Shown here: positions 6,659 to 54,966 of the stretch, one piece after another | Layout of the letters: the number at the start of each line of letters is the position of its first letter | How positions within the stretch are numbered: position 1 is the stretch's first letter | Assembly (NCBI GenBank): GCA_016795285.1 | Contig: JAEUIC010000035.1 | Span: 1-64,000 of the forward strand | Source of the DNA: Planctomycetota bacterium | Lineage (GTDB): Bacteria; Planctomycetota; B15-G4; SIAN01 | Length of the DNA stretch: 64,000 nucleotides | Direction of reading: 5' to 3' | Notes under the pieces: generated by a model | Database searches by the model: none | What the model saw: only the letters and a program-made list of their open reading frames with translations | What the model was told of the DNA's origin: nothing | Position numbers and translations under genes: made by a program

Positions 6659-7706
6659 CGCTCCCGACGAACCCGACGACGCCGATCCCGAGGCGGGCAA
6701 GCTCCTCTCGTTGCGCACGCGGCTGCGGCTGGTGGTGGCGCCCGACGAAGCGGCGCTGCGGCTCGACCACTTCCTCGCCAAGCGCTGCCCGTGGCGCTCG
6801 CGCACGAAGATCGAGGAGTTGATCCAGCGCGGCCAGGTCGAACTCGCCGACCGCGTGGCGCGACCGGCGCGCAAGGTCCACGCGGGCGAGACGATCGTCG
6901 TCCACCTGCCGCGCCCGAAGCGCGAGGCCGACTTCGCGGCGCGCGGCGAGGCGCCGGAGCTCCCGCTGCTCTACGAGGACGACGACCTGCTGGCGGTCGA
7001 CAAGCCGGCCGGTATCCCGGTCCACCCCGGCGGACGGCTGTTGGAAGACACGGTCATCACGCGGCTCCACCGCCGCTTCGGAGTCGGCGCGCCCGGCTTC
7101 GATCCCGAGCGCCACGTGACGCCGAAGCTCTGCCACCGCCTCGACCTCGAGACGAGCGGCGTGCTGCTGGTGGCGAAGAGCGACGCGGTCGCCGCCGAGA
7201 TGAACCGGCAGCTGCGCACGCGCGAGGTGGTGAAGGAGTACCTCGCGCTGGTGCACGGCGTCGTGCGCGAGGAGGAGTTCCTGGTCGACGGGCCGCTCGG
7301 CGACCATCCGTCGAGCCTGGTCGCGAACCGGCGCGCCGTCGTGCCGGGTGGCAGCCCCAGCAAGACCGGCTTCAAGGTCGAGCGGCGCTTCGCCGACTTC
7401 ACGCTGCTGCGCTGCCGGCTGTGGACCGGCCGGCGCCACCAGATCCGCTGCCACCTCCAGCACGCCGGCTACCCGATCGTCGGCGACAAGCTCTACGGCC
7501 TCGACGAGGGCTACTTCCTCGCCTACTACGAGGAGCGCCTGGACGACGCGATGCGCGCTCGCCTGCTGCTGCCGCGCCAGGCGCTGCACGCCGCACGCCT
7601 CGTCGTCACCCACCCGAAGAGCGGCGCGCCGCTCGAGCTCACCGCCCCGCTGCCGCGCGACATCGCCGAGCTGATCGCGACGCTCACGACGACGCGCGAT
7701 CGCTGA
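6645..7706 (+). CDS. RluC/RluD-family 23S rRNA pseudouridine synthase
   Basis: 353 residues. An S4 RNA-binding domain at about 30-90 (RLDHFLAKRCPWRSRTKIEEL) precedes the TruA/Rlu-type catalytic domain. The catalytic Asp is Asp167 in CHRLDLETSGVLLVAK. LLAVDKPAGIPVHPG and WTGRRHQIRCHLQHAGYPI are the other family blocks. The enzyme isomerises uridine to pseudouridine in rRNA (or tRNA); the exact target site cannot be assigned between RluC- and RluD-type members. The start is TTG, inside the end of the previous gene, with TACAGT at 6630 as a possible -10 element that would leave almost no leader. Its 3' end overlaps the convergent hybrid kinase gene by 23 bases. Confidence 0.85.
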   Translation: MAPPDAPDEPDDADPEAGKLLSLRTRLRLVVAPDEAALRLDHFLAKRCPWRSRTKIEELIQRGQVELADRVARPARKVHAGETIVVHLPRPKREADFAARGEAPELPLLYEDDDLLAVDKPAGIPVHPGGRLLEDTVITRLHRRFGVGAPGFDPERHVTPKLCHRLDLETSGVLLVAKSDAVAAEMNRQLRTREVVKEYLALVHGVVREEEFLVDGPLGDHPSSLVANRRAVVPGGSPSKTGFKVERRFADFTLLRCRLWTGRRHQIRCHLQHAGYPIVGDKLYGLDEGYFLAYYEERLDDAMRARLLLPRQALHAARLVVTHPKSGAPLELTAPLPRDIAELIATLTTTRDR

Positions 7707-10700
7707 GCCGCGTCTTCAGCGCGCGCGCCAACGCCTCGGCGAGGCTGCGCAGGTCGAACGGCTTGTAGAGCAGCTCGACGATGCCGTGCGCCGCCAGCTC
7801 GTCGCGGACGATGCCGGTGAGGTAGCCGGTGACCAGCACCATCGGCAGCCCGGGCGAGAGCTGCTGGAGGCGGCGCGCCAGCTGCACGCCGTTCAGGTCG
7901 GGCATCGAGAGGTCGTTCACCACGACGTCGAAGCCGGTCGGCGTCGCCTCGACCTGCGCGATCGCCGCCGCCGGATGGGCGCACGCGGTGACCGCGTAGC
8001 CGAGCCGCTCGAGCATGCGGCGGCCGAGCTCGAGCACCGCGCTCTCGTCGTCGACCAGCAGCACGCGCTGGCCGCTGCCGCGCGGCAGCTCGTCGGGCAG
8101 CGGCTGCTCGACCTCGCTGGCGGCGCGCACGATCGGCAGCCAGACCTCGACGCGCGTCCCCTTGCCGACCGCGCTCGACACGGTGACCGCGCCGTCGTGC
8201 GAGCCGACGATGCCGTGCACCATCGCCAGCCCGAGGCCGGTCCCCTCGCCCGGCCCCTTCGTGGTGAAGAACGGCTCGAAGACGCGCTCCATCACCTCGG
8301 CGCTCATGCCGACGCCGTCGTCGGCCACCGACAACCGCAGCCAGCGGCCGGGCCGCAGCCGCGGCACGCTGCGCGCCAGCTCCTCGTCGACGTCGACCTC
8401 GGCGAGGTTCACCTCGATCTTCCCCTTGCCGGCCGGCATCGCCTGCGCGGCGTTGGTGCAGAGGTTCACCACCACCTGGTGGATCTCGGTCGGATCGGCC
8501 ATCACCGTGCCGCCCGGCGCGGTGACCACCACCGACAGCTCGACGTCGGCCGGGAACGACGAGCGCACCATCCGGCACGCCTCGCGCACGACCGAGTCGA
8601 CCACCACCAGCGCGCGCTGCTGCTCGCCGCGGCGGCTGAAGCGGAGGATCTGGCGCACCAGGTCGCGCGCGCGCCCCGACGCCTGCCGGATCTCGATCAG
8701 CCCGTCGATCGCCTCGTCGGTCGCCGGCGCCTCCTGGCGCAGCGCCGCCTCGGCGAGCTCCGCGTGGCCGAGGATCGCGGTCAGCAGGTTGTTGAAGTCG
8801 TGCGCGATGCCGCCGGCCAGCGTGCCGATCGCCTCGAGCTTCTGCGACTGGCGCAGCTGCGCCTCGAGCTCGCGGTGCGCCTGCTCGGTGGCGACCCGCT
8901 CGGAGAGGTCGCGCGCCACCAGCGACAGGAACTCGACGCGGCCGTCCGGCAGCTCGTGGCGCAGCAGCGAGGCGAGCACCGGCACCGCGCGCCCGCCGGC
9001 GCCTTCGAGCAGCGTCTCGCCGGTCCAGCGGCCGCGCGCGCGCAGCTCCGGCAGCGCGTCCTGCTCGAAGAGCGGCCGCACCGACGGCGCGACCAGGTCG
9101 AGCAAGCTCTCGACCCGCGCGGTCCGTCCGACGCCGCCCAGGATGGCGCGCCCCGCCTCGTTCAACGCGGTGACGCGACCGGCCGGGTCGGCGAAGCAGA
9201 CCAGCTCGTCGGTGGCGGAGAGGAGCAGCTCGGAACGGGCGTGCGCCGCCGCCAGCGCCTCGGCCGCGGCGATCCGCTCGCGCGCGCGGCGGGCGGCGAC
9301 GCGATCGGCCAGCACGTAGACCAGCGCGAGGCCGCCGACCAGCGCGGCGCCGAGCGCGAACTTGAAGCTCTTCGTCTGCCACCAGAAGGGCGGCACCAGC
9401 AGCTCGACGGTCGTGAGCGACTGCGACCAGCGGCCGTCGCCGTTGCTGGCGCGCAGCTCGAAGCGATGGAGCCCGGCGGGCAGCTCCGGGAACTCGAGCA
9501 GCCGCTCGGGGCCGACCTTGACGAAGCGCGCGTCGGGGGCGCTGCGGTAGGCGAGCTGCACCCCTTCGGCGCCGCGCATCACCGGCACCGAGAAGGCGAG
9601 TCGCACGCTGCTCGCGCCGGCCGGCAGCGAGACGCGCACCTGGCCGCGCTCGACCCGCCGCGCGACGCCGTCGACGATGCACTCGTCCAGCACCACCATC
9701 GGCAGCCGCTCGAGCGGCTGCGCCGCCGCCGGATCGAGCCACGCGAGCCCGGTCGCGGTGGCGAACCAGAGGCGGCCGTCGGCGTCCTGCGCGATGCGGC
9801 GCGATTCGCTGCCGGCCGTCTGCGAGGTCGGCAGGCCGTCGGCGATCGAGAGGCGCAGCGGCGCCGGCGGCGCGGGCGCCGCGAGGTCGGCCCACCAAAG
9901 ACGCAGCTCGTCGATGGCGAAGCGGCGCAGCGCGTCGTCGCCGTTCAGCCAGACGTGCGCCCCGACCACGGCGAACTCGCTGGTCGCGAGGTCGCTCACC
10001 AAGCGCCGCGCGCGCAGCGTGGCGCCGTCGCGGCGCGCGAGCGCCACGCAGCGCGCCCCCGCCACCAGCGAGAGCAGCGCGAAGTCGTCGTCGAGCCAGC
10101 GGAGCGCGCGCACCGGCCGCGCGACGAGCGGCTCGCCGTCGAGTTCGAGCGCGATCGGCGCGAACGCGACCCCTTCGGCGCGATGGACGCCCGCCGAGCC
10201 GCAGCTCCAGACCGCGCCGCCGCGATCGAGCGAGAGGTCGCGCACCGACGCGCCTTCGGGCAGCCCCTCGCACCGCGCGAGCGACTCGCCGACCAGCCGC
10301 CACGCGCCGCTCGACGAGCCGAACCAGAGGGCGTCGCCGCGCGGGAGGAAGGCGCCGACGTCGCAACCGACGCGCTCGGCCGGAACGCGCTCGACGAGCG
10401 CATCCCCGACCGCGCTCCAGAGCCCCGTCTCCTTGGTGCCGATCCACAGCGTGCCGTCGGCGGCCGCCTCGACGCCGCGGATCTGCGTCGTGCCGACACG
10501 GTGGCGCAACTGCAGCAACGGCTTCGGGTGGCCGCCCTCGAGGGCGACGAGGTTGCCGGCGGCGTTGGCCGCCAGCAGCCGGCCGCTCGGCTCGACGGCG
10601 AAGCAGCAGACGGCGTCGTCGAGCGAGTAGGCGCCGCCGAGGTGGACGTCGCGCACGCGGCGCGGCGTGAGGCTCGCGAGGCCGCCGCCGCCCGTGCCGA

Positions 10701-11694
10701 CGTGGATCACGCCGTCGGCGTCCTCGAGCAGCGCGGCGATGTTGCTGGAGAGCAGCTCGGTGCCGAGCGCAGCCACCAGCGGCGGCGCGCCGCCCGGCGG
10801 CAGCAGCGCGAGGCCGTAGGAGAAGCTGCCGACCCAGAGGTTGCCGGCGCTGTCCTCGAGGAGCGTGGCGAAGTCGCTGCCGAGCTCGGGCGGCACCGGC
10901 CGCGACTCGACCTCGCGCCCCGCGACGAGGCGGCGAGCGCGGCCGCCCGCGACCAGCCAGAGCCCGCCCGCCCGCGACCGCGCGATGCCGCGCACCGTGC
11001 TGCCGAGCGCCGCCGCGTCGGCCACCACGTCCCACCCTTCGCCGCGCCGACGCGCCACCACGCTCTCGCACGCGGCGTGGAGGACGCCGTCGGCATCGCA
11101 CGCGAGCTGCCAGCCCGAGTGGTCGGCGGGGTCGCGCGGCGGCGGCTCGATGCGGTGCGCGCGGTCGAGCGGGTCGATCGAGTGGAGCGTCGGTCCGCCG
11201 CACCAGACCGTGCCATCCCCCGCTTCGGCCAGCGAGACGATCGGGCCGCTCTGCTCGTCGATGCCCTCGATCGGGTACCAGCCGCTGCGGTCGAGGCGGC
11301 GCAGGCTGTGCATGCCGCCCGCCCACAACCGTCCGGAGCGATCGCAGAGCAGGCCGACGAAGGCATCCTCGACCAGCTCCGGCTGCTGCGCCACGCGCGC
11401 CACCCGGAAGCGGCGGCCGTCGAAGCGCGCGAGCCCCTCGAACGTGCCGACCCAGAGGAAGCCGTCCGGCCCTTGCGCCAGCGCGCGCGCGACGACGTCG
11501 GGCAGCCCTTGGTCGCGGAGGTTGAAGCGGGCGCGGAAGAGATCGGAGAGGCGCGCGGCCGCCGGCGCGGGCGAGTCGAACGCCGCTCGCGTCTCGGCAC
11601 GCGCCGGCCAGGCGACGCCCGCGAGCAGCGCGCTCGCGAGCACTCCCCATCGGGCCAGCTGCGCCCTCTCTCGCCGCGGCGCCGAGATCCCCAT
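7684..11694 (-). CDS. Hybrid two-component sensor kinase with beta-propeller sensor
   Basis: 1336 residues. A signal peptide (to about 34, WPARA-ET) leads to a periplasmic region of about 740 residues made of Reg_prop-like propeller blades ([30 protein letters not shown]) and a YYY-type beta domain just before the membrane segment at about 775-797. Next come a PAS-like domain (about 825-930), a HisKA domain with [19 protein letters not shown] (His near 966), a HATPase domain ([26 protein letters not shown]) and a C-terminal receiver (LLVDDESAV, phospho-acceptor Asp in [18 protein letters not shown]). It resembles the hybrid sensors used for polysaccharide or sugar sensing, but has no DNA-binding output domain, so a phosphotransfer partner must lie elsewhere. 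No response regulator is adjacent. The gene upstream on the same strand encodes a sulfatase-fold protein. Confidence 0.9.
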
Positions 11695-40723: not shown

Positions 40724-41344
40724 ATGACTGATGAGACCCGAAGGTTGGTGAGCCAGGCCTCGCAGGGCGATCGCCCCGCGGTCGAGCAGCTGTTGCAGCG
40801 CTACCTGCCGGGGCTGCGCGCCTTCATCCGCATGCGCGCCGGACCGATGATCCGCCGCCGCGAGTCGGAGAGCGACCTCGCGCAGTCGGTCTGCCGCGAG
40901 GTGCTGGAGCACGTCGACAAGTTCCAGTACGGGAACGAGACCGGCTTCAAGCGGTGGCTCTACACCACGGCGCTCCGCAAGATCCTCCATCGCTACGAGT
41001 ACTACGCCGCCGACAAGCGCAACGTGCTGCTCGAGACGCCGTTGGCCGGGAACGGCGACAGCTCGCGCTCGAACGAGCAGCTGCTGGCCGACGCCTACCG
41101 CACCTTCTCGACGCCGAGCCAGAACGCGATGAAGCGCGAGGAGATCGAGCGGGTCGAGAAGGCGTTCGATCGCCTGAAGGACGAGCAGCGCGAGGTGATC
41201 TCGCTGGCGCACGTGGTCGGCCTGTCGCGCGCCGAGATCGCCGAGCAGATCGGCAAGAGCGAGGGGGCGGTGCGCACGATGCTGTCGCGCGCGCTCGCGG
41301 AGCTCTCCGAGCTGCTCGAGGATCCGGACGCCGCGTCGAGCTGA
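40724..41344 (+). CDS. ECF-type sigma-70 factor, planctomycete-like
   Basis: 206 residues. Region 2 spans about 20-95 (VEQLLQRYLPGLRAFIRMRA; SESDLAQSVCREVLEHVDKF; GFKRWLYTTALRKILHRYEY). Region 4 spans about 145-200 (LKDEQREVISLAHVVGLSRA; IGKSEGAVRTMLSRALAEL). The region-2 wording with S-D-L-x-Q-S and FKRWL is like that of sigma factors abundant in Planctomycetota. No anti-sigma gene is next to it. Downstream lies the five-gene array of secreted proteins on the same strand, which it might control; the 254-base gap and separate promoter signals make co-transcription unlikely. Confidence 0.9.
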   Translation: MTDETRRLVSQASQGDRPAVEQLLQRYLPGLRAFIRMRAGPMIRRRESESDLAQSVCREVLEHVDKFQYGNETGFKRWLYTTALRKILHRYEYYAADKRNVLLETPLAGNGDSSRSNEQLLADAYRTFSTPSQNAMKREEIERVEKAFDRLKDEQREVISLAHVVGLSRAEIAEQIGKSEGAVRTMLSRALAELSELLEDPDAASS

Positions 41345-41598: not shown

Positions 41599-42600
41599 AT
41601 GCTGCGACCGCTCCCCCTCGCGCTCGGCCTGTTGGCCCTCGCGCCCGCCGCGCGCGCCCAGAGCTGCGATGGATTGAAGGGTTGGCACCTCGACATCCCG
41701 GCGCAGATCGAGATCGGCTCGGTGGCCGACGTCGACTTCACCGGCCCGGCGCACGAGATGGCGCTGTTGATGGTGTCGCTCGGCCAGGGCCCGGTGAAGA
41801 GCGGCTACGGGACGATCTGCCTCGACTTCCCGCTGCTGGCGCAGGTGATGCTCGGCCTCGACGCCGCCGGCAAGGCGCTGCTGCAGTTCGACATCCCGTG
41901 CGATCCGGCGCTGGTCGACGTCACGGTCTACTCGCAGTTCATCACCTGTCGCCCCAACAAGGGCATCTCGAACCAGGTCGCGTCGACCTTCATCGACGCG
42001 CTCCATTCCGGCGATCTCTGCACCTACACGCAGGGCGGGTGGGGAGCGGACTGCCACGGCGGCAACCCCGGCTGCCTGCTCGAGACGTGGTTCCCGACGC
42101 TCTTCCCGAACGGGCTCGCGATCGGCGATCCCGACGGCGTCTTCGACAACGATGGCGTCTTCGCGGCGCGTTGGGACAGCGCTGCGGCGGTGAACCGATT
42201 CCTGCCGATCGGCGGCGGTCCCGGCCCGCTCACCTACGACGCGGTCGATCCGGCCACGCTGCCGGCGTGCGTCTTCGCCGGCCAGCTGGTCGCCGCGAAG
42301 CTCAACTGCGCGTTCGATGACGCCGGCCTGTTCGACGGCGGCAAGTGCCGCGACGATCTCAAGCTCTGCGACCTCGTCTTCGTCGCGGGCGTGCACCAGA
42401 AGCTGCTCGGCTGGACGGTGCGCGACCTGATCGACCTGGCCGACCAGGCGATCGCTTGCGCGCTCGGCGCCGGGCCGTTCGACATCGACGGCGACCAGAT
42501 CGGCGACGTGACCTACGCCGACCTGAACGACGCGCTCGACGCCTTCAACCGCAACTTCGACAACTGCAGCAGCAACCTCGGCTACCTCGGATTGGAGTGA
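41599..42600 (+). CDS. Secreted Cys-rich array protein A, dockerin-like end
   Basis: 333 residues with a signal peptide ending ARA-QS. It is the first of five tandem paralogs. Family blocks: HEMALLMVSLGQGPVKSGYG, then TICLDFP, IPCDPALVDVTVYSQFITC, LCTYTQGGWGADC with PGC, KCRDDLKLCDLVFVAG and GWTVRDLIDLADQAI. At least eight Cys positions are shared across the family and probably form disulfides. Near the C-terminus, FDIDGDQIGDVTYADLNDAL looks like one EF-hand/dockerin-type calcium loop. I know no named family for the main body. GGAG lies 11 bases before the ATG; TAACTC followed by a C run at 41498 is a possible -10. It is closest to copy B. Confidence 0.85.
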   Translation: MLRPLPLALGLLALAPAARAQSCDGLKGWHLDIPAQIEIGSVADVDFTGPAHEMALLMVSLGQGPVKSGYGTICLDFPLLAQVMLGLDAAGKALLQFDIPCDPALVDVTVYSQFITCRPNKGISNQVASTFIDALHSGDLCTYTQGGWGADCHGGNPGCLLETWFPTLFPNGLAIGDPDGVFDNDGVFAARWDSAAAVNRFLPIGGGPGPLTYDAVDPATLPACVFAGQLVAAKLNCAFDDAGLFDGGKCRDDLKLCDLVFVAGVHQKLLGWTVRDLIDLADQAIACALGAGPFDIDGDQIGDVTYADLNDALDAFNRNFDNCSSNLGYLGLE

Positions 42601-42619
42601 ACTCGACCGCAGCGACTCC

Positions 42620-42660
42620 GGCCGCCGCAGGTCGCCGCCGTACCGCGACCTGCGGCGGCC
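42620..42660 (+). terminator. Long hairpin after array gene A
   Basis: A perfect 16-bp stem (42620-42635 with 42645-42660, GGCCGCCGCAGGTCGC and complement) with a nine-base loop lies 20 bases after the stop. It is followed by TCCGTT only, so it may stop transcription or stabilise the mRNA end. Confidence 0.7.
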
Positions 42661-42797
42661 TCCGTTCCGGGAGCGCCGCCGGCCGCGCATCGACGCGTCC
42701 GGTCTGCCCCTCGGCCCCGCGACGAGCGACGCGCCAGCGCGTCGCCGCTGCAGGCGGACCCCAGGAGTGGTCGCCAGTTCGAGACCGTCCCTGAGGC

Positions 42798-42826
42798 CTG
42801 TACGAAACGCGACGCGCCGCTAGGTT
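42798..42826 (+). promoter_or_regulatory. Candidate promoter of array gene B
   Basis: CTGTAC (42798-42803) is separated by 17 bases from TAGGTT (42821-42826). The match to sigma-70 consensus is modest; the spacing is exact and a C-rich run follows the -10 as at other genes here. Confidence 0.35.
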
Positions 42827-42902
42827 CTCCTTCCCACCGAACGGCGAGCGAGCCGTTCGAATCCGATCCTCCGCCCCCCGTTCGTTCCGGAGAACTCCCC
42901 TC

Positions 42903-43898
42903 ATGCGTCAGTCCTTCGCGCTCCTTTCCCTCTTCGCGTTCGCGAGCCCGGTCGCCGTGGCCGGCGATTGCGACGGCACGCCCGGCTGGGTCCTCACCGC
43001 GCCGAGCGAAGTCGCGATCGGCTCCACCGTCGACGTCTGCCTCTCCGGGCCGGCGAACGAGATGGCGCTGCTCATGGTCTCGGGCGGCACCAGCGTGTTG
43101 CCGAGCCGCTACGGGAACATCTGCGTCGAGTTCCCGCTGATCGGCGAGTTCATGGTGACGCTCGACGCGAGCGGCCAGCACTGCTTCCAGGCCGAGATCG
43201 ACTGCGATCCGTCGCTGATCGGCCTCACGGTCTATTCGCAGTTCATCACCTGCCGCCCGAACAAGGGCGTCTCCAACCTCGTCGCGACGACCATCACCGA
43301 CGGGCTCTGCGCCGGCGACCTCTGCACCTTCACGCAGGGCGGCTGGGGGACGAACTGCAGCGGCAACAATCCGGGTTGCCGGCGCGACCAGTACTTCGCC
43401 AGCGTCTTCCCGAACGGCCTCAAGATCGGCGACGCCGACGGCATCGACGGCGACGGCGAGTTCGCGCTGCACTTCAGCAGCTCGGCGGCGGTCGCAGCGT
43501 TCCTCCCGGCGGGCGGCAAGGGCGGCGCGCTGAACGGCGACGCGCACGATCCGCTCTCGAGCTCGGCGGGCGTGTTCGCGGGCCAGCTCGTCGCGGCGAA
43601 GCTCAACCTCGCGTTCGATGACGCGGGCGCGCTCGACGACTGCAAGGGGCGCACCGACCTCGACCTCGGCGACCTCGTCTACGTCGCGGGCGTCGACAGC
43701 GACCTGCTCGGCTGGAGCGTGCGCGACGTGATCGACCTCGCCGACCAGGCGATCTCGGGCGCGCTCGGCAGCTCGATCGATCTCGACGGCGACGGCGGCG
43801 GCGACCTCACGATCGGCGACCTGAACACCGCGCTCGACCTGCTGAACAACAACTTCGACAACGGCACGCAGAACCTCGGCTACCTCGGCATCTCCTGA
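42903..43898 (+). CDS. Secreted Cys-rich array protein B, dockerin-like end
   Basis: 331 residues. The signal peptide ends near VAVAGD. It shares with copy A the blocks NEMALLMVS, SRYGNICVEFP, TVYSQFITCRPNKGVSN, LCTFTQGGWGTNC, NPGC, AAKLNLAFDDAG and WSVRDVIDLADQAI. The calcium-loop-like end reads DLDGDGGGDLTIGDLNTAL, the closest of the five to a canonical EF-hand loop. GGAGAA lies 11 bases before the ATG. It is probably transcribed alone, with a hairpin before it and one after it. Confidence 0.85.
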   Translation: MRQSFALLSLFAFASPVAVAGDCDGTPGWVLTAPSEVAIGSTVDVCLSGPANEMALLMVSGGTSVLPSRYGNICVEFPLIGEFMVTLDASGQHCFQAEIDCDPSLIGLTVYSQFITCRPNKGVSNLVATTITDGLCAGDLCTFTQGGWGTNCSGNNPGCRRDQYFASVFPNGLKIGDADGIDGDGEFALHFSSSAAVAAFLPAGGKGGALNGDAHDPLSSSAGVFAGQLVAAKLNLAFDDAGALDDCKGRTDLDLGDLVYVAGVDSDLLGWSVRDVIDLADQAISGALGSSIDLDGDGGGDLTIGDLNTALDLLNNNFDNGTQNLGYLGIS

Positions 43899-43909
43899 AT
43901 CGATGCGCT

Positions 43910-43950
43910 CGATCGCCGCGCGGCGCCAACTCGGCGGCGCGCGGCGATCG
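43910..43950 (+). terminator. Hairpin after array gene B
   Basis: A 12-bp perfect stem CGATCGCCGCGC (43910-43921) pairs with 43939-43950, with a GC-rich 17-base loop that can pair further. No T run follows, so intrinsic termination is uncertain. Confidence 0.6.
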
Positions 43951-44115
43951 TCCCGACCAAGCTGCGCAGCCCGGTGACGGGCATGCATCCGACGTTCGCT
44001 CGCGGGGGCGGTCCGTGATCCGGGCCGCCCTCGCTCGTTGGGTCGGTTGCCGCGCGGATCGCGAGCGGCGCCCCCGCGGCGGCCGTTCCGTCACAGCTCG
44101 GTGCCAGCCCACCCC

Positions 44116-44144
44116 TCGACGGATCACGGGCAGGAGCCTACGGT
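44116..44144 (+). promoter_or_regulatory. Candidate promoter of array gene C
   Basis: TCGACG (44116-44121; four of six consensus bases) and TACGGT (44139-44144) are 17 bases apart, 67 bases before the GTG start. Confidence 0.4.
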
Positions 44145-44210
44145 CCGCGCTCCAAGCGGTCCGTGATGTCCGCGGAGCGCATCCCCCCGTCCTGGTTCGA
44201 GGAGTCTGCC

Positions 44211-45230
44211 GTGAAGTCGATGTTCCTGCCCGCGTTACTGCTCGCATGGTCCTTCGCCCCGTCGGCCCACGCCCAGTGCACCGGCACCGGCGCGTCGTTG
44301 AGCATCCCCAACACGGTCGCCATCGGCGAATCGGTGACGGTGCAGATGCACGCCGATCTGCCGGTCACCACGATCCTGCTCTTCATCTCGCTCGGCGACG
44401 GGCCGGTGAACGGCGGCAGCTACGGCACGCTCTGCGTCGACTTCCCGCCGGCCGCGTCGATGCTCTTCGTGCTCGACCCCAACGGCGACGCCTCCTTCTC
44501 GGAGGAGGTGCCGTGCGACCCGTCCTTCCTGAACCAGACCTTCTACTCGCAGTTCATCACCTGCAGCCCGGGCGGCGGCCGCGGCTCGCACGGCGCCTCC
44601 AACATGGTCGACACGACCATCGTCGACGGGCTCGGCAGCGACTCGTTCTGCACCTACACGCAGGAGAGCTGGGGCGATGACTGCGCCACGTCGAGCATCG
44701 CCTGCATGCTGGAGCAGGAGTTCGACAACCTCTTCCCGAACGGCTTCCTGATCGGCGATTCCGACGGCCCCTTCGACGGCGACACGCTCTTCGCCGCGCG
44801 CTTCGACAGCGCCGCCGCGCTGAAGGCGTTCCTGCCGATCTACTTCAACCCGGCCGCGCTCGACGCGGACGTGGTCGATCCGCTGTCGGTCATCGCGTGC
44901 GGGTTCGCCGGCGAGCTGGTCGCGGCGAAGCTGAACGTCGCGTTCGACGACGCGGCGCTCTTCGATCCGTTCAAGTGCCGCACCGACCTCAAGCTCGGCG
45001 ACCTCTTGCTGGTGCAGAAGGTCCACAAGTCGCTGCTCCAGTGGACGGTGCGCGACCTCATCGACCTCTGCGACCTGGCGATCTCGGGCGCGTTCCCGAG
45101 CGGGCTGATCGACGTCGATGGCGACGGCACCCTCGACCTCTCGATCGCCGACCTGAGCAACGCGCTCAACTCCGTGAACCGCAACTTCGAAGGCTGCGCC
45201 AGCAACCTCGGCTACCTCGGCATCCCGTGA
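44211..45230 (+). CDS. Secreted Cys-rich array protein C (mosaic copy)
   Basis: 339 residues from GTG at 44211, chosen because GAGGAG precedes it by six bases exactly as in copy D, and because it gives a clean signal peptide (MKSMFLPALLLAWSFAPSAHA). The first 145 residues resemble copies D and E (CTGTGASLSIPNTVAIGE; TTILLFISLGDGPVNGGSYG; CSPGGGRGSHGASNM). From TQESWGDDC onward it follows copies A and B (FPNGFLIGDSDGPFDGD; FAARFDSAAALKAFLP; GCASNLGYLGIP). The calcium-loop-like segment is DVDGDGTLDLSIADLSNAL. The copy is therefore either the result of recombination between the subtypes or an ancestor-like form. Confidence 0.85.
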   Translation: MKSMFLPALLLAWSFAPSAHAQCTGTGASLSIPNTVAIGESVTVQMHADLPVTTILLFISLGDGPVNGGSYGTLCVDFPPAASMLFVLDPNGDASFSEEVPCDPSFLNQTFYSQFITCSPGGGRGSHGASNMVDTTIVDGLGSDSFCTYTQESWGDDCATSSIACMLEQEFDNLFPNGFLIGDSDGPFDGDTLFAARFDSAAALKAFLPIYFNPAALDADVVDPLSVIACGFAGELVAAKLNVAFDDAALFDPFKCRTDLKLGDLLLVQKVHKSLLQWTVRDLIDLCDLAISGAFPSGLIDVDGDGTLDLSIADLSNALNSVNRNFEGCASNLGYLGIP

Positions 45231-45305
45231 TCGCAGCGCGATCGGGTGACCCGCGCCGAACGCCCTCCAGCGAGGCGTGACGCGCGGGCGTGAAGCAGAT
45301 GACGG

Positions 45306-45340
45306 GCGGGCGGCTCCTTGCGGGGCCGCCCGCTTTCGTT
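45306..45340 (+). terminator. Terminator after array gene C
   Basis: A 9-bp perfect stem GCGGGCGGC (45306-45314) with 45325-45333 is followed by TTTCGTTT and further T-rich bases to about 45353, fitting an intrinsic terminator. Confidence 0.8.
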
Positions 45341-45444
45341 TCGGGTTTCGTTTCGAGCGGCTTCGGCGATGACTGTCGCGATCCGCGATGCCGTGAGTCG
45401 CTCCACCACCCCTGTCGATCTGAAACAGCACTACGTCAGATCAC

Positions 45445-45473
45445 TTGATGGACTAAGTGTTTTCACCTAACCT
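45445..45473 (+). promoter_or_regulatory. Promoter of array gene D
   Basis: TTGATG (45445-45450) and TAACCT (45468-45473) are 17 bases apart, in the most AT-rich stretch of the region, 75 bases before the GTG start. It is one of the two best sigma-70-like promoters in the window. GTCAGATC, the core of the repeats at 256-322, lies directly upstream. Confidence 0.6.
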
Positions 45474-45548
45474 CCCGCGCCGTTTCCGAGCCGCTGCGCC
45501 CCTTGGGGGCGTCCCGCGGTCCCCCCATCGAGAAGACGAGGAGTCTCC

Positions 45549-46574
45549 GTGAGCCGAGCCAGCATCGCCGTCGCCCTTCTTTCGACCTGCGCCTTCGCGG
45601 GCACCGCCGCCGCCCAATGCGAGGGCACCGGCGCCGTCCTCGACCTGCCGACCACGGTCGCGATCGGCGATCTCATCACCGCGCAGATGCATGCCGATCC
45701 GCCGGCCACCACGATCCTGCTGTTCTCGTCGCTCGGCGACGGTCCGGTCGACGCCGGCAGCTACGGCACGCTCTGCCTCGACTTCCCGCCGATCCTGCAG
45801 CAGCTCTTCCTGCTCGACCAGAACGGCGACGCGTCGTTCACCGACGAGATCCCGTGCGATGCCGGCTTCATCGGCCAGACGTTCTACGTCCAGTTCATCA
45901 CCTGCAGCCCGGGCAAGGGCCGCCTGTCGCACGGCGCGTCGAACATGGTGCCGGTGACCATCGTCGACGGCATCGGCAGCGACTCGTTCTGCACCTGGAC
46001 GCAGGAGGACTTCAACCTCGAGTGCAGCCGCGGCGGCGCGGCCGGCTGCCTGCTGCAGGAGAACTTCGCCAAGGTGTTCCCCGCCGGCGTGATGATCGGC
46101 GATCAGGACGGCAACCTCGACAACAACTGCTACTCGACGCTGTGGGACAACCCCAACGCCATCGAGAACTACCTGATGCAGGACACCGGTTGCAGCCAGC
46201 TGACCGGCGACCACCGGAACCCGCGCAGCGAATCGGGCTTCCGGTTCGGCGCCGAGCTGCTGGTGGCGAAGTTGAACGTGGGCTTCGACGACGCCGGCAT
46301 CTACGACGGCTCGAAGTGCCGCGTCGACCTCAAGGTCGGTGACCTGCTCTTCGTCGGCTGCGTCGACGAGGACCTGATCGGCTGGAAGGTGCGCGACCTG
46401 ATCGACCTGTGCGACGCTGCGATCTCGTGCGAGCTCGGCAAGGGCCCGTTCGACATCGACGGCGACCGCCAGGCCGACGTCACCTGCGACGACCTGATGG
46501 AGGCGCTCGCCGCCTTCAACGCCAACTTCCGCGCCTGCGCCGTCGATGAAGGGTGCCTCGGCATCGACAGCTGA
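45549..46574 (+). CDS. Secreted Cys-rich array protein D
   Basis: 341 residues from GTG at 45549 with GAGGAG five to six bases upstream. The signal peptide ends at AAA-QC. The D/E subtype blocks are CEGTGAVLDLPTTVAIGD, TTILLFSSLGDGP, FYVQFITCSPGKGR, FCTWTQEDFNLEC and ESGFRFGAELLVAKLN. The common family blocks (KCRVDLKVGDLLFVGCVDE; GWKVRDLIDLCDAAI) follow. The calcium-loop-like segment is DIDGDRQADVTCDDLMEAL, less canonical because of Arg and Ala in the loop. The end is CLGIDS, as in copy E. Confidence 0.85.
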   Translation: MSRASIAVALLSTCAFAGTAAAQCEGTGAVLDLPTTVAIGDLITAQMHADPPATTILLFSSLGDGPVDAGSYGTLCLDFPPILQQLFLLDQNGDASFTDEIPCDAGFIGQTFYVQFITCSPGKGRLSHGASNMVPVTIVDGIGSDSFCTWTQEDFNLECSRGGAAGCLLQENFAKVFPAGVMIGDQDGNLDNNCYSTLWDNPNAIENYLMQDTGCSQLTGDHRNPRSESGFRFGAELLVAKLNVGFDDAGIYDGSKCRVDLKVGDLLFVGCVDEDLIGWKVRDLIDLCDAAISCELGKGPFDIDGDRQADVTCDDLMEALAAFNANFRACAVDEGCLGIDS

Positions 46575-46601
46575 TCCCGCTGTCGAACGCTGAGGTTCCT
46601 G

Positions 46602-46640
46602 CCGGGGCGGTCGCTTCACAGCGGCCGCCCCGGTCGTTTT
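46602..46640 (+). terminator. Terminator after array gene D
   Basis: A 13-bp stem with one G-T pair (46602-46614 with 46621-46633) and a six-base loop is followed by TCGTTTT. Its core CCGGGGCGG is the same as in the terminator of array gene E. Confidence 0.88.
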
Positions 46641-46790
46641 CCGAGCGATCGGGTCGCGCGATGAGGTGACGGCTCGACGATTCCACTCCCGTTTGCCAAA
46701 TTGCCGACCCCGTTCCGGGACCCCGGCACCCTCGTCGAGTCAAACCGGAACCTCCCTGATCTGCACGGCCATCCGCAAGGAGTCTCCCCA

Positions 46791-47819
46791 GTGAAGCGTT
46801 CGTTGCTCTCCACCTTGATCGTCTGCGGCGCGTTCGGCTCCGCCAACCTGCGCGCGCAGAACTGCGATGGCACCGGCGCGACGCTCGACCTGCCCGACAC
46901 GGTCGCCATCGGCGAGTTCGTGACGGCGCTGATGCACGCCCCGCCGCCCGCCACCACCATCCTGTTGATGGCCTCGCTCGGCGACGGCCCGAACAGCGGC
47001 GGCAGCTACGGCACCCTCTGCCTCGACTTCCCGCCGGTCCTCCAGCAGATCTTCGTGCTCGACGCCAACGGCGACGCCTCGCTGACCGAGGAGATCCCGT
47101 GCGATCCGGGCTTCATCGGCCAGACCTTCTACGTGCAGTTCATCACCTGCAGCCCCGGCAAGGGGCGCGCGTCGCACGGCTCGTCCAACATGAAGTCGGT
47201 GACGATCGTCGACGGCATCGGCACCGACTCCTTCTGCACCTTCACGCAGGAGGACTTCAACCTCGAGTGCGGCAAGGGCAGCCCCGCCGGCTGCTACCTG
47301 CGCGACCACTTCGAGCACGCCTTCCCGAAGGGCGTGCTGATCGGCGACCAGGACGGCGATGACGCCGACCAGTGCTACGCGGCGCTCTGGACGCGCGCCG
47401 GGACGATCGAGAACTTCCTGATCCAGGACTACCGCTGCGCGCAGCTCGACGGCGATCGCAAGGATCCGAAGGGCGAGTCGGGCTTCAAGTTCGGCGCCGA
47501 GCTGCTGGTCGCCAAGCTGAACCTCGGCTTCGATGACGCCGGCATCTACGACAGCGCCAAGTGCCGCGTCGACCGCAAGGTCGGCGACCTCGTCTTCATC
47601 GCCTGCGTCGACGAGCACCTGATCGGCTGGAGCGTGCGCCAGCTGATCGACTTCGCCGACCTCGCCATCTGCGGCGAGCTCGGCGCCGGGCCGTTCGACC
47701 TCGACGGCGACCAGAAGGCGGACGTCACCTGCGACGACCTGATGGACGCGCTCGAGGTCTTCAACGGCAACTTCCGCGAGTGCTCGATCGACAACGGCTG
47801 CCTCGGCATCGACAGCTGA
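46791..47819 (+). CDS. Secreted Cys-rich array protein E
   Basis: 342 residues from GTG at 46791, with AAGGAG nine to ten bases upstream; an in-frame ATG at 46701 would add 30 residues without a signal peptide at its start. The signal peptide is MKRSLLSTLIVCGAFGSANL followed by RAQNC. It is the close sister of copy D: TTILLMASLGDGPNSGGSYG, FYVQFITCSPGKGRASHG, FCTFTQEDFNLEC and ESGFKFGAELLVAKLN. The C-terminal loop-like segment is DLDGDQKADVTCDDLMDAL and the end CLGIDS. The family is probably exported to the surface or medium; no enzymatic motif is visible. Confidence 0.85.
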   Translation: MKRSLLSTLIVCGAFGSANLRAQNCDGTGATLDLPDTVAIGEFVTALMHAPPPATTILLMASLGDGPNSGGSYGTLCLDFPPVLQQIFVLDANGDASLTEEIPCDPGFIGQTFYVQFITCSPGKGRASHGSSNMKSVTIVDGIGTDSFCTFTQEDFNLECGKGSPAGCYLRDHFEHAFPKGVLIGDQDGDDADQCYAALWTRAGTIENFLIQDYRCAQLDGDRKDPKGESGFKFGAELLVAKLNLGFDDAGIYDSAKCRVDRKVGDLVFIACVDEHLIGWSVRQLIDFADLAICGELGAGPFDLDGDQKADVTCDDLMDALEVFNGNFRECSIDNGCLGIDS

Positions 47820-47848
47820 GCGAGACCGCGACGATCTGCTGATCCCCG

Positions 47849-47887
47849 CCGGGGCGGCCGCGACGAGCGGTCGCCCCGGTTCCTTTT
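47849..47887 (+). terminator. Terminator after array gene E
   Basis: A 13-bp stem with one G-T pair (47849-47861 with 47867-47879) and loop GACGA is followed by TTCCTTTT. It is a near copy of the terminator after array gene D, which supports duplication of the whole unit. Confidence 0.87.
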
Positions 47888-50035: not shown

Positions 50036-51625
50036 CTACGCCTTGCCGACGGGCCGCAAGCGGGCGAGCAGCGCTGCTCGCTCGGCGCGATCGGTCGCGC
50101 ACCAGAGGCCGACGAGCGCGGCCGGCAGCGCAACGACGACGCCGCGCGCCAAGAACGAGAGCAGCGACGTGACCGGCAGCGCGTCGGCGACCAGCCGATC
50201 GACCGCCCCCATCACGAGGATCGCCGGCACCGCCGCTCGCAGCGTGTCGAACGCGAAGCGCTTCCAGTCGAGCTCGAGCTCGCGCAGCAGGTGGCGCGGC
50301 TGGACGAACCCCTGCATCAGCGCGACCGGGATCAGCGTCGCCACCGCCACGCCCACCAGCCCCCAGCGCCGCACGAACCAGATCGAGAGCGCCACGTTGA
50401 TGACCGCCTCGATCAGCACCAGGAAGCCGAGGTAGCGCACCTCGCGCATCGCGAAGAGCGCTTGGCGGCCGGCGCTCTGGCTGGCGCGGATCAACGTCGC
50501 GAAACCCAGCACCGCCAGCACGACGGCGCAGGTCGGGAAGAGCGGTCCGGCGACGAAGTCGGGCTTGAGCCAGATCGAGAGGAACTCCTGGCCGAGGAAG
50601 AGCATCCCGCCGGCGATCAGCGCGGCGAGCAGCGTGACCCCGCGCGTCCCGCTGCAGAGCAGCCTTCGCACGTCGTCGACCTGGCCGATCGCGAAGCGGC
50701 CGGTGAAGTGGGGCGTGAACGACCACGTCACCGACTGAACGAGCTGCATGAAGTAGGGGATCAGCGTGGTCGCCGGCACCACGTAGTAGGCGACCGCCGT
50801 CTCGTCGTGCAGCGCCTGCATGATCACGAAGCCGCTGGTGTAGAGCAGCACCGTGTCGCCGACGTTCACCAGCACGTTGAAGCCGCCGTAGCTGAAGAGG
50901 TCGCGCGCCGCCGCCTTGGTGCAGCGGCTGAAGGAGAGCGCCAGCTCGGGCAGCACCCGGTAGGCGCAGACGATCGATGCGATCCAGGCGAGCACGTTGC
51001 AGCCGATCGCCACGCACGCCAGCCCGATCAGCCCGTGGCCTGCGCGCAGGACCCACCAGGTCAGCGCAGCGCGCACCAGCACCTGGCTGATGCCGATGGC
51101 GTTCTGGATGCCGATGCGTTGCACCGAGTAGATCACGGTGCCGTAGAGCGCCATCGGGAACTGCAGAGCGAAGCCGGCGCCCATCACCCAGACGACGACG
51201 CGCAGCGTGGCGGGATCGTCGAGCGCCGACTTCGTGTCGAGCGCGGTGTCGCCGCTCGCCAGCTTGAGTTCGTTGATCCAGCGGTACCAATCGGGCAGGC
51301 GATCGCCCGCGAACCACGAGACGAGCCCTGCCAGCAGCGCCACCACCAGCATCAGCGCCATCGCCGTGCTGAGCGTCTGGTTGACCTTCGCCTCGTCGCG
51401 CTGCGCGTGGTAGGTCGCGACGTAGTGGCCGACCGCCGAACGGATGCCGACGTCGAGCAGCCCGTAGTAGCCGACGAACGAGACGACCAGCGACCAGATG
51501 CCGTACGCCCCCTTGCCGAGCGTGTCGATCACGTAGGGCGTCATCAGGAAGGCCACCGCGACGTTGATCGCGTAGCCGACCGAGTTGCTGCCGACGTTCT
51601 TCAGGATGGTGCGCGAGTTCGACAT
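50036..51625 (-). CDS. Wzx-type polysaccharide flippase (MATE/MOP family)
   Basis: 529 residues from ATG at 51625, which opens with MSNSRTILKNVGSNSVGY as expected for the family; an in-frame ATG 24 bases upstream is also possible. About 12-14 hydrophobic segments are spread along the chain (first VAFLMTPYVIDTLGKGAYGI, a family hallmark). Wzx proteins flip undecaprenyl-linked oligosaccharides across the inner membrane. It is not linked to glycosyltransferases here, but a PilZ-domain gene lies on the same strand upstream. Confidence 0.88.
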   Translation of the reverse strand: MSNSRTILKNVGSNSVGYAINVAVAFLMTPYVIDTLGKGAYGIWSLVVSFVGYYGLLDVGIRSAVGHYVATYHAQRDEAKVNQTLSTAMALMLVVALLAGLVSWFAGDRLPDWYRWINELKLASGDTALDTKSALDDPATLRVVVWVMGAGFALQFPMALYGTVIYSVQRIGIQNAIGISQVLVRAALTWWVLRAGHGLIGLACVAIGCNVLAWIASIVCAYRVLPELALSFSRCTKAAARDLFSYGGFNVLVNVGDTVLLYTSGFVIMQALHDETAVAYYVVPATTLIPYFMQLVQSVTWSFTPHFTGRFAIGQVDDVRRLLCSGTRGVTLLAALIAGGMLFLGQEFLSIWLKPDFVAGPLFPTCAVVLAVLGFATLIRASQSAGRQALFAMREVRYLGFLVLIEAVINVALSIWFVRRWGLVGVAVATLIPVALMQGFVQPRHLLRELELDWKRFAFDTLRAAVPAILVMGAVDRLVADALPVTSLLSFLARGVVVALPAALVGLWCATDRAERAALLARLRPVGKA

Positions 51626-51746
51626 GGGACGCCGCGAAGGATGGTGCAACGGCGCGCAGAGTCAAGCGCGCGTCGCGACCGGGGCCGGCGAGCGATCGCC
51701 GCGGGAGTGATCGGCGCAGCGCTCGCGTCGCCGCGGGACCGCTCGC

Positions 51747-53454: not shown

Positions 53455-54966
53455 ATGCGTAAGGCAGGTGCGATGTCGGTCCTGGCACTCGGTGCAGGAT
53501 CGCTGGCGTTCGGGCAGGACGCCTCGTCCCAGGCGCAGAAGATCGCCGAGCTGCAGAAGCAGGTCGATGCGATGCAGGCGCAGCTGCGGGCGCTGCAGAC
53601 CGAGACGCCGAGCGTCGGCCTCGAGGCCCGCCTCGACGGTGCGGTCCGCAACAGCCCGGTCGAGGCGCTGCGCGAGCCGCGCCGCTTGAACATCAGCGCC
53701 CCGGGGCTCGACGGCCTGAACATCGACGGCCTCGTCCACATCCGTGGCGACTACTGGGCCAACTTCGACTCGGGCGGCGGCAACAACGACGTCAGCTCGT
53801 TCGGCACCGAGGCGCAGCTCGGCTTCGATGCGCGCGTCTCCGAGAAGACCTCGGTCCGCATCGGCCTGCACTACTCCGACATCTGGGGCAACGACACGAA
53901 CCACGGCCTCGGCGGGACGAGCCGGCTCACCGATGACTCGACCACGAGCTCGGACGGCGACATCAACGCCCAGGAAGTGCTGCTCCGCGTCGGCGACCTC
54001 TACGGCACCGGCGTCGACATGACCGTCGGCCGCCAGCGCATCGAGCTCGGCGCCGAGCGCATCATCGGCGACGACGACTGGCGCCTCACCCGGACCTCAT
54101 TCGACGGCTTCCGCTTCGACAACGACCTCGGCGACGCGGCCGGCCGCTGGACGCTGATGGCGCTGCGCCTGCACGACGCCGACAACAGCGGCAACCGCGA
54201 GCTGCTGCCGAGCTCGCCGAGCGCTCCGGGCAACAACCCGCTGAACAACGCCGACCTCTACGGCTTCTACTACACGGTCATGCCGCGGGACATCGGCACG
54301 ATCGACGCGTACTTCTTCCACCTCGAGGACTTCAACTACCCGGCCGGCATGGAGCGCACGCGCTTCTCGACCTACGGCGCGCGCTGGGCGAGCCCGGACT
54401 GGGAGGGGCTCAACTTCGAGGCCGAGGGCGCCACGCAGTTCGGCGAGATCTTCGGCCAGAAGACGCACAACTACGGCTTCGGCACCTACGCGCTGCACGG
54501 CAGCGCCGCGTTCGAGCCGCGCGACGTCGAGTACTTCGACAGCGTCTACGCCGCCTACGACTACGCGACCGGCGGCGACAGCCTCGAGGAGAACTTCCAG
54601 CAGCTCTTCCCGTCGCTGCACGGCTGGTTCGGCCTCACCGACATGTTCGGCTGGTCGAACATCCAGCACACGACGCTCGGCGCGTCCTTCGACCTCGGCG
54701 AAGGGCAGCTGAACCTCGGCTACCACTGGAGCCGCCGCGCGACCACCAGCGCCGGCTTCGGCGGCTACAACATCTCGGCGGCCAGCTCGGGCGGCAACAA
54801 GTCGCTCGGCGAGGAAGTCGACCTCACCTACGTGATGCAGTGCTCGAAGTCGACGACCGTGGGCATGGGCCTCGGCTACTTCTTCGCGGGCAACGGCTTC
54901 CACGACCTGACCGGCAACGCCGACAACATGATGTTCAGCTACTTCGCGTTCAGCACCCGCTTCTGA
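53455..54966 (+). CDS. Outer-membrane porin, alginate-export-like, coiled-coil N-terminus
   Basis: 503 residues; GAGGAGGAG precedes the ATG. A signal peptide of about 20 residues ends AFGQ. A short coiled coil follows (AQKIAELQKQVDAMQAQLRA), common in planctomycete and proteobacterial porins. The barrel from about 85 has RGDYWANFDSG, VDMTVGRQRIELGAERIIGD, WRLTRTSFDGFRFD and alternating strands up to the terminal SYFAFSTRF, whose last residue is Phe as in most outer-membrane barrels. The substrate is unknown. A hairpin follows the gene. Confidence 0.82.
   Translation: MRKAGAMSVLALGAGSLAFGQDASSQAQKIAELQKQVDAMQAQLRALQTETPSVGLEARLDGAVRNSPVEALREPRRLNISAPGLDGLNIDGLVHIRGDYWANFDSGGGNNDVSSFGTEAQLGFDARVSEKTSVRIGLHYSDIWGNDTNHGLGGTSRLTDDSTTSSDGDINAQEVLLRVGDLYGTGVDMTVGRQRIELGAERIIGDDDWRLTRTSFDGFRFDNDLGDAAGRWTLMALRLHDADNSGNRELLPSSPSAPGNNPLNNADLYGFYYTVMPRDIGTIDAYFFHLEDFNYPAGMERTRFSTYGARWASPDWEGLNFEAEGATQFGEIFGQKTHNYGFGTYALHGSAAFEPRDVEYFDSVYAAYDYATGGDSLEENFQQLFPSLHGWFGLTDMFGWSNIQHTTLGASFDLGEGQLNLGYHWSRRATTSAGFGGYNISAASSGGNKSLGEEVDLTYVMQCSKSTTVGMGLGYFFAGNGFHDLTGNADNMMFSYFAFSTRF

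Follow-up and report, generated by a model that had tools for sequence, protein, structure and literature searches.

Five secreted tandem paralogs of a planctomycete combine an Ig-like domain with a C-terminal domain outside the named families

A dockerin is a module of its own that consists of two loop-helix repeats, and the type I family (Pfam ID PF00404) presents a DxDGD loop and a following helix at the C-terminus. A similar loop and helix are found at the ends of five proteins encoded by a tandem array of paralogous genes in a lake-dwelling planctomycete bacterium (positions 41599-47819, + strand, of the 64,000-nt stretch analysed here, referred to as the window), and an earlier note on this DNA had described them as secreted Cys-rich proteins with dockerin-like ends. 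The window corresponds to C5:1-64000 of the source assembly (G000; 5.77 Mb, 47 contigs, 91% complete). We find that each protein is composed of two domains, an Ig/FnIII-like beta sandwich (residues ~22-135) and a compact domain here called TQGGWG (residues ~137-331), and that the TQGGWG domain lies outside every named Pfam, NCBIfam and PDB family. We consider it moderately probable that the array encodes extracellular binding or matrix proteins that are non-catalytic and separately transcribed, and whose C-terminal domain is perhaps stabilised by calcium. The five genes are as follows.

41599-42600, + strand: gene 1, 333 residues, with signal peptide, Ig-like N-terminal domain and TQGGWG C-terminal domain according to open reading frame, translation and alignment; one-to-one ortholog in genome G119
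42903-43898, + strand: gene 2, 331 residues, same architecture as gene 1; the protein used for modelling
44211-45230, + strand: gene 3, 339 residues; start codon GTG at 44211 behind GAGGAG
45549-46574, + strand: gene 4, 341 residues; start codon GTG behind GAGGAG
46791-47819, + strand: gene 5, 342 residues; start codon GTG behind AAGGAG; a recent duplicate of gene 4

The gene 2 product shares 43-60% identity with the other four (E values from 3.6e-116 to 1.3e-61), far beyond chance, and identities across the array range from about 43 to 71%, which together with the open reading frames confirms a five-gene tandem array on one strand. A Sec-type signal peptide with an AxA-type cleavage site is visible in all five proteins (for example, MRQSFALLSLFAFASPVAVA before the cleavage point and GDC after it), so that the description as a secreted, expanded family holds as well. 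The count of at least eight conserved Cys was slightly high: the alignment shows seven invariant ones (C23, C74, C101, C117, C141, C152, and C159 in gene 1 numbering), with an eighth, C250, present in four of the five. The sequence blocks quoted for the family exist but are not uniform; YSQFITC is found in genes 1 to 3 and reads YVQFITC in genes 4 and 5, KCRxDLKxGDL is exact in genes 3 and 4 only, and RDLIDL occurs in genes 1, 3, and 4 only. The full-length proteins have no Pfam or NCBIfam match at an E value of 1 or below, in agreement with the earlier remark that no named family was known for the body.

A profile built from the five array proteins, searched against 392 Planctomycetota genomes, matched in 45 of them, either over the full length, over the N-terminal part only (~7-140) or over the C-terminal part only (~140-340). 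Because the N-only and C-only matches split cleanly among unrelated proteins, the two parts are modules with separate lives. The TQGGWG domains of the array are located as follows.

42007-42597, + strand: TQGGWG domain of gene 1
43311-43895, + strand: TQGGWG domain of gene 2, defined by the 27-row alignment, the structure model and the profile matches
44637-45227, + strand: TQGGWG domain of gene 3
45978-46571, + strand: TQGGWG domain of gene 4
47223-47816, + strand: TQGGWG domain of gene 5

The profile of the C-terminal part alone (27 rows) matches in 17 of the 392 genomes, 11 of them among the 14 genomes of this class and 6 more in five other families. Copy numbers in related genomes range from one to six, and no copy was seen in three of the 14 genomes of the class. 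The array proteins match this profile over its full length and carry the invariant F, G, and N positions. Elsewhere, the domain is terminal, lies behind beta-rich or Ig-like N-termini in differing proteins, or precedes charged low-complexity tails; in one protein (G058), it follows a DUF7507 match with an E value of 1.6e-05, which does not reach the DUF7507 cut-off. The positions conserved in at least 80% of the 27 domains are mostly G, P, A, L, F, and V, the others being T142, Q145, W148, C152, D177, N235, and N315 (gene 2), with no His, Glu, Lys, Arg, or Ser among them.

The AlphaFold model of the gene 2 TQGGWG domain alone, about 195 residues long, has high confidence (predicted local distance difference test [pLDDT], 96.5; predicted TM-score [pTM], 0.93). 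Its fold has no match in the PDB (best E value, 4.1), searches of Pfam, NCBIfam and the PDB for relatives returned only scattered single-member matches (best E value, 0.0078), and sequence searches of PHROGs and the PDB with the proteins and the domain gave no credible match. The one strong match came from viral models and is a Tupanvirus deep ocean protein annotated as "Ig family protein" (UniProtKB accession no. A0A6N1NZ86; 606 residues), which shows a fold like that of the array domain in a single fold comparison (E value, 9.8e-16; TM-score by query, 0.81; 30% identity over 208 columns). If real, the homology suggested by this predicted-fold comparison would link secreted planctomycete proteins to a giant-virus protein. 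Searches of viral contigs, phages and plasmids revealed no relatives of the domain; one plasmid match covers 29% of the query and lies under an IS5 transposase annotation. The spread of the domain was followed by profile within Planctomycetota genomes and by fold beyond that phylum, and a scan of the named genome collection with array-specific patterns matched only two congeners. The congeners are Planctomycetota metagenome-assembled genomes. A literature search for the TQGGWG motif, Planctomycetota dockerins and the Tupanvirus protein found nothing relevant. With its confidently predicted fold and no relative among solved structures or named families, a domain of this size clearly invites structural study.

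The N-terminal domains are located as follows.

41659-42006, + strand: Ig/FnIII-like domain of gene 1
42963-43310, + strand: Ig/FnIII-like domain of gene 2, with a beta-only model, Ig-like PDB matches and recurrence on other secreted proteins
44271-44636, + strand: Ig/FnIII-like domain of gene 3
45615-45977, + strand: Ig/FnIII-like domain of gene 4
46851-47222, + strand: Ig/FnIII-like domain of gene 5

The AlphaFold2 model of the mature gene 2 protein, predicted from 24 aligned rows (pLDDT, 95.5; pTM, 0.86), is all beta in residues 10-112, followed by a mixed, mostly helical domain. The best Foldseek matches of the N-terminal domain in the PDB are Ig-like folds (E value of ~1e-5, probability of 1.0, TM-score by target of at most 0.62), which places it in a known fold class, with the subclass left uncertain by a high root mean square deviation. 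On larger secreted proteins, this domain follows a subtilase domain, FG-GAP repeats, a TSP_C domain or a GH38 C-terminal sandwich, and it is also placed ahead of kelch repeats and of SdrD_B repeats. In one such protein of 1161 residues (L076 242-3724), seven SdrD_B repeats and two DUF7467 domains come after the N-terminal domain. Another, encoded in the same genome as the array (L079 4248-5177; C24:153388), continues into a long Asp/His/Gly-rich repeat tail (CDDDKDGHGHGDGHGDDDDD...) and is possibly metal binding or mineral binding.

Two acidic loops are found in the TQGGWG domain.

43428-43463, + strand: first acidic loop of gene 2 (GDADGIDGDGEF), of the IGDxDGxDxDG type, optional in the family according to the alignment
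42481-42522, + strand: terminal acidic loop of gene 1, DxDGDxxxDxxxxD
43779-43820, + strand: terminal acidic loop of gene 2, flanked in the mature protein by helices 253-265 and 284-297
45111-45152, + strand: terminal acidic loop of gene 3
46452-46493, + strand: terminal acidic loop of gene 4
47697-47738, + strand: terminal acidic loop of gene 5

The DxDGDxxxD loop occurs once at the end of each of the five proteins, and all five show the DxDxDG-type pattern (D at position 1, D or N at 3 and 5, an acidic residue at 9, then a helix). The gene 2 model places the acidic loop between two helices, as expected from the earlier note's reading of a calcium-loop-like segment. The segment does not form an end module of its own, however. 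In the 27-row alignment, the helix after the loop (..AL...N.NF) is conserved, whereas the loop itself is missing in seven relatives (L020, L021, L025, L026, L027, L029, and L069), and the earlier acidic stretch is likewise missing in some. The terminal loop is thus inserted between two helices of the TQGGWG domain, is optional in the family and is probably an EF-hand-like, calcium-holding decoration of the domain, to judge from its sequence. Natural variants with and without each loop are available within the family.

Each gene is followed by one strong hairpin, as previously noted, and an extracytoplasmic function (ECF) sigma factor gene lies directly upstream of the array.

42620-42660, + strand: hairpin after gene 1, folding z of -4.3
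43910-43950, + strand: hairpin after gene 2, folding z of -3.4
45306-45333, + strand: hairpin after gene 3, folding z of -3.0, with a T-rich tail
46602-46633, + strand: hairpin after gene 4, folding z of -3.3
47848-47880, + strand: hairpin after gene 5, folding z of -4.1, with a T-rich tail
40724-41344, + strand: ECF sigma factor gene with Pfam Sigma70_r2, r4 and ECF matches, a possible regulator

In a strict scan, a T-rich tail follows the hairpin only after genes 3 and 5. The four candidate promoters proposed earlier found no support, as no sigma-70-like site was detected in the array region and no upstream dyad common to the five genes or to the family stood convincingly above Markov shuffles. 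In G019 and G179, a similar ECF gene (54% identity) lies next to a family member in divergent orientation (L067 4279-4878 and L066 1286-1876); the two species share a genus, which belongs to another family of the order, and count as one further event. This recurrence is suggestive of ECF control of the array, but ECF genes are numerous in these genomes.

In the tree of the TQGGWG domain, gene 1 pairs with the copy from G119, to which it is 73% identical; genes 4 and 5 form a second pair, and the G214 copy branches outside it. From the placement of these two foreign copies, at least two lineages are older than the species split, and the duplication of genes 4 and 5 is more recent. The gene-5-like copy in G214 has the same genes behind it as gene 5 has in the window, namely methyltransferase-like, DUF4432 and flippase-like ones. 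Near a contig start, this copy is broken into two reading frames and lacks profile positions 83-168 (L013 312-1158); it is either a pseudogene or an assembly fault. Tandem pairs of the family are also found in G225 and G045. The genome of the array has a sixth full-length member (C16:110565-111539), which is directly followed by a likely serine/threonine protein kinase gene, judged by the gene start (L078 5485-9991). By simple counting, the ratio of nonsynonymous to synonymous differences (pN/pS) among the paralogs is near 1, and, compared with neighbouring genes of similar pN, the paralogs have a low pS. Since strong codon bias could produce such a low pS, we make no claim of positive selection.

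In the reading we favour, the Sec pathway would export the five proteins, which, once the signal peptide is cleaved off, would act outside the cell as two-domain proteins. The Ig/FnIII-like domain may serve as a spacer or docking domain, and the TQGGWG domain would be the functional, non-catalytic part, its two acidic loops near the start and the end probably holding calcium and stiffening it. Most likely, the proteins would bind a ligand, either a surface or a polymer, or serve as building material of the cell envelope or a matrix. The paralogs arose by tandem duplication and have since diverged, and their terminator-like hairpins would make separate expression possible, perhaps under the adjacent ECF sigma factor. 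Secretion, the Ig-like partners, the optional acidic loops and the lack of conserved His, Glu, Lys, Arg or Ser lead us to favour over catalysis a binding or matrix role, both of which were among the options of the earlier note. Some points weigh against this reading: a binding pocket or an unusual active site could be formed by the conserved W, Q, N, T, and D, the calcium role is deduced from sequence motifs, and, with no upstream motif common to the five genes, ECF control leans on the neighbourhood.

The near-invariant polar residues T142, Q145, W148, N235, and N315 in a compact domain, next to an Ig-like domain of a kind that also occurs on secreted enzymes, could instead indicate a secreted enzyme of a new family, such as a hydrolase or lyase. 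We consider this unlikely, given that the conserved residues include no set of His, Glu, Lys, Arg or Ser, that Pfam, NCBIfam and the PDB indicate no relation to any enzyme, and that the fusion partners of the domain are beta-rich segments and tails that are charged or of low complexity. Very improbable, and largely refuted, is that the proteins are dockerin-bearing parts plugging into cohesin scaffolds in a cellulosome-like manner. Their loop and helix do resemble half a dockerin, but a dockerin would be a separate module of ~60-70 residues with two repeats, whereas here a lone loop, absent from seven relatives in which the helix after it is retained, lies inside a 195-residue domain. The closing Asp is at position 14 of the loop, compared to 12 in type I dockerins. 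Dockerin_1 has no match on the five proteins at an E value of 1 or below and no site over the cut-off in the genome, and cohesin (Pfam ID PF00963) has none at an E value of 0.1 or below in this 91% complete assembly, while control genomes were positive. On these grounds, the terminal end is not a dockerin, and the example illustrates a trap, as a lone DxDGD loop at a C-terminus does not make one.

Two further explanations were weighed. The proteins could have a structural purpose, as subunits of an outer lattice, stalk or matrix, kept in several versions for different conditions, and not ligand binders. Secretion, the conserved Cys, the strong use of G/C-ending codons (GC3 of the array genes, 0.94-0.98) and the individual hairpins would fit such a role, but the size and domain make-up are unlike those of known S-layer proteins, and the variable copy number, down to none in some class genomes, also speaks against it, making it improbable in our view. 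Recombination among the copies, with the array as a variant store for surface variation, would be suggested by five tandem paralogs on one strand and by a pN/pS between gene 5 and its G214 ortholog above that of the neighbouring genes, although codon bias may account for the low pS. We saw neither an expression site nor a silent fragment nor a promoter-inversion repeat, and every copy is complete with its own start and hairpin. The divergence of the paralogs and the clear sister-species ortholog of gene 1 argue against frequent exchange, so that the surface variation raised in the earlier note is not specifically supported and seems quite improbable.

The favoured role as binding or matrix proteins can be extended to a more tentative proposal, to which we give somewhat less than even credence. 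The TQGGWG domain may be an undescribed extracellular fold, a binding module behind Ig-like segments, transferred between Planctomycetota and at least one giant virus of amoebae and, in this class, expanded into tandem, separately expressed surface or matrix proteins.

Elsewhere in the window, a hybrid two-component protein of 1336 residues is encoded at 7687-11694, with a Reg_prop propeller, PAS, histidine kinase and response regulator domains. An outer-membrane porin of the Alginate_exp family (E value, 5.6e-28) is encoded at 53455-54963, and a polysaccharide flippase-like gene lies near it at 50039-51649.

Among solved structures, the predicted fold of the N-terminal domain is like that of a chain of a complement C5 complex (PDB ID 5b71_E), SoxZ (PDB ID 2ox5) and the beta-sandwich of a GH3 beta-glucosidase (PDB ID 5xxm). 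In contrast to these Ig-like domains, it has no Pfam match and carries four conserved Cys, and its sequence family was, where sought, seen in Planctomycetota only. C-terminal domains elsewhere in Planctomycetota, on proteins of G020, G058, G109, G149, and G178, have the TQGGWGxxxxGNNPG, FLPxGG, GQ(L/V)(A/V)A..LN and NENF blocks in common with the array, but these proteins are mostly larger, have other N-terminal parts and are without the terminal acidic loop. Compared to the cohesin-dockerin system, the array stands in a genome with no cohesin match. As a whole, we regard the proteins as a new take on a known kind, that of secreted paralogs combining an Ig-like domain with a further module, and not as categorically new.

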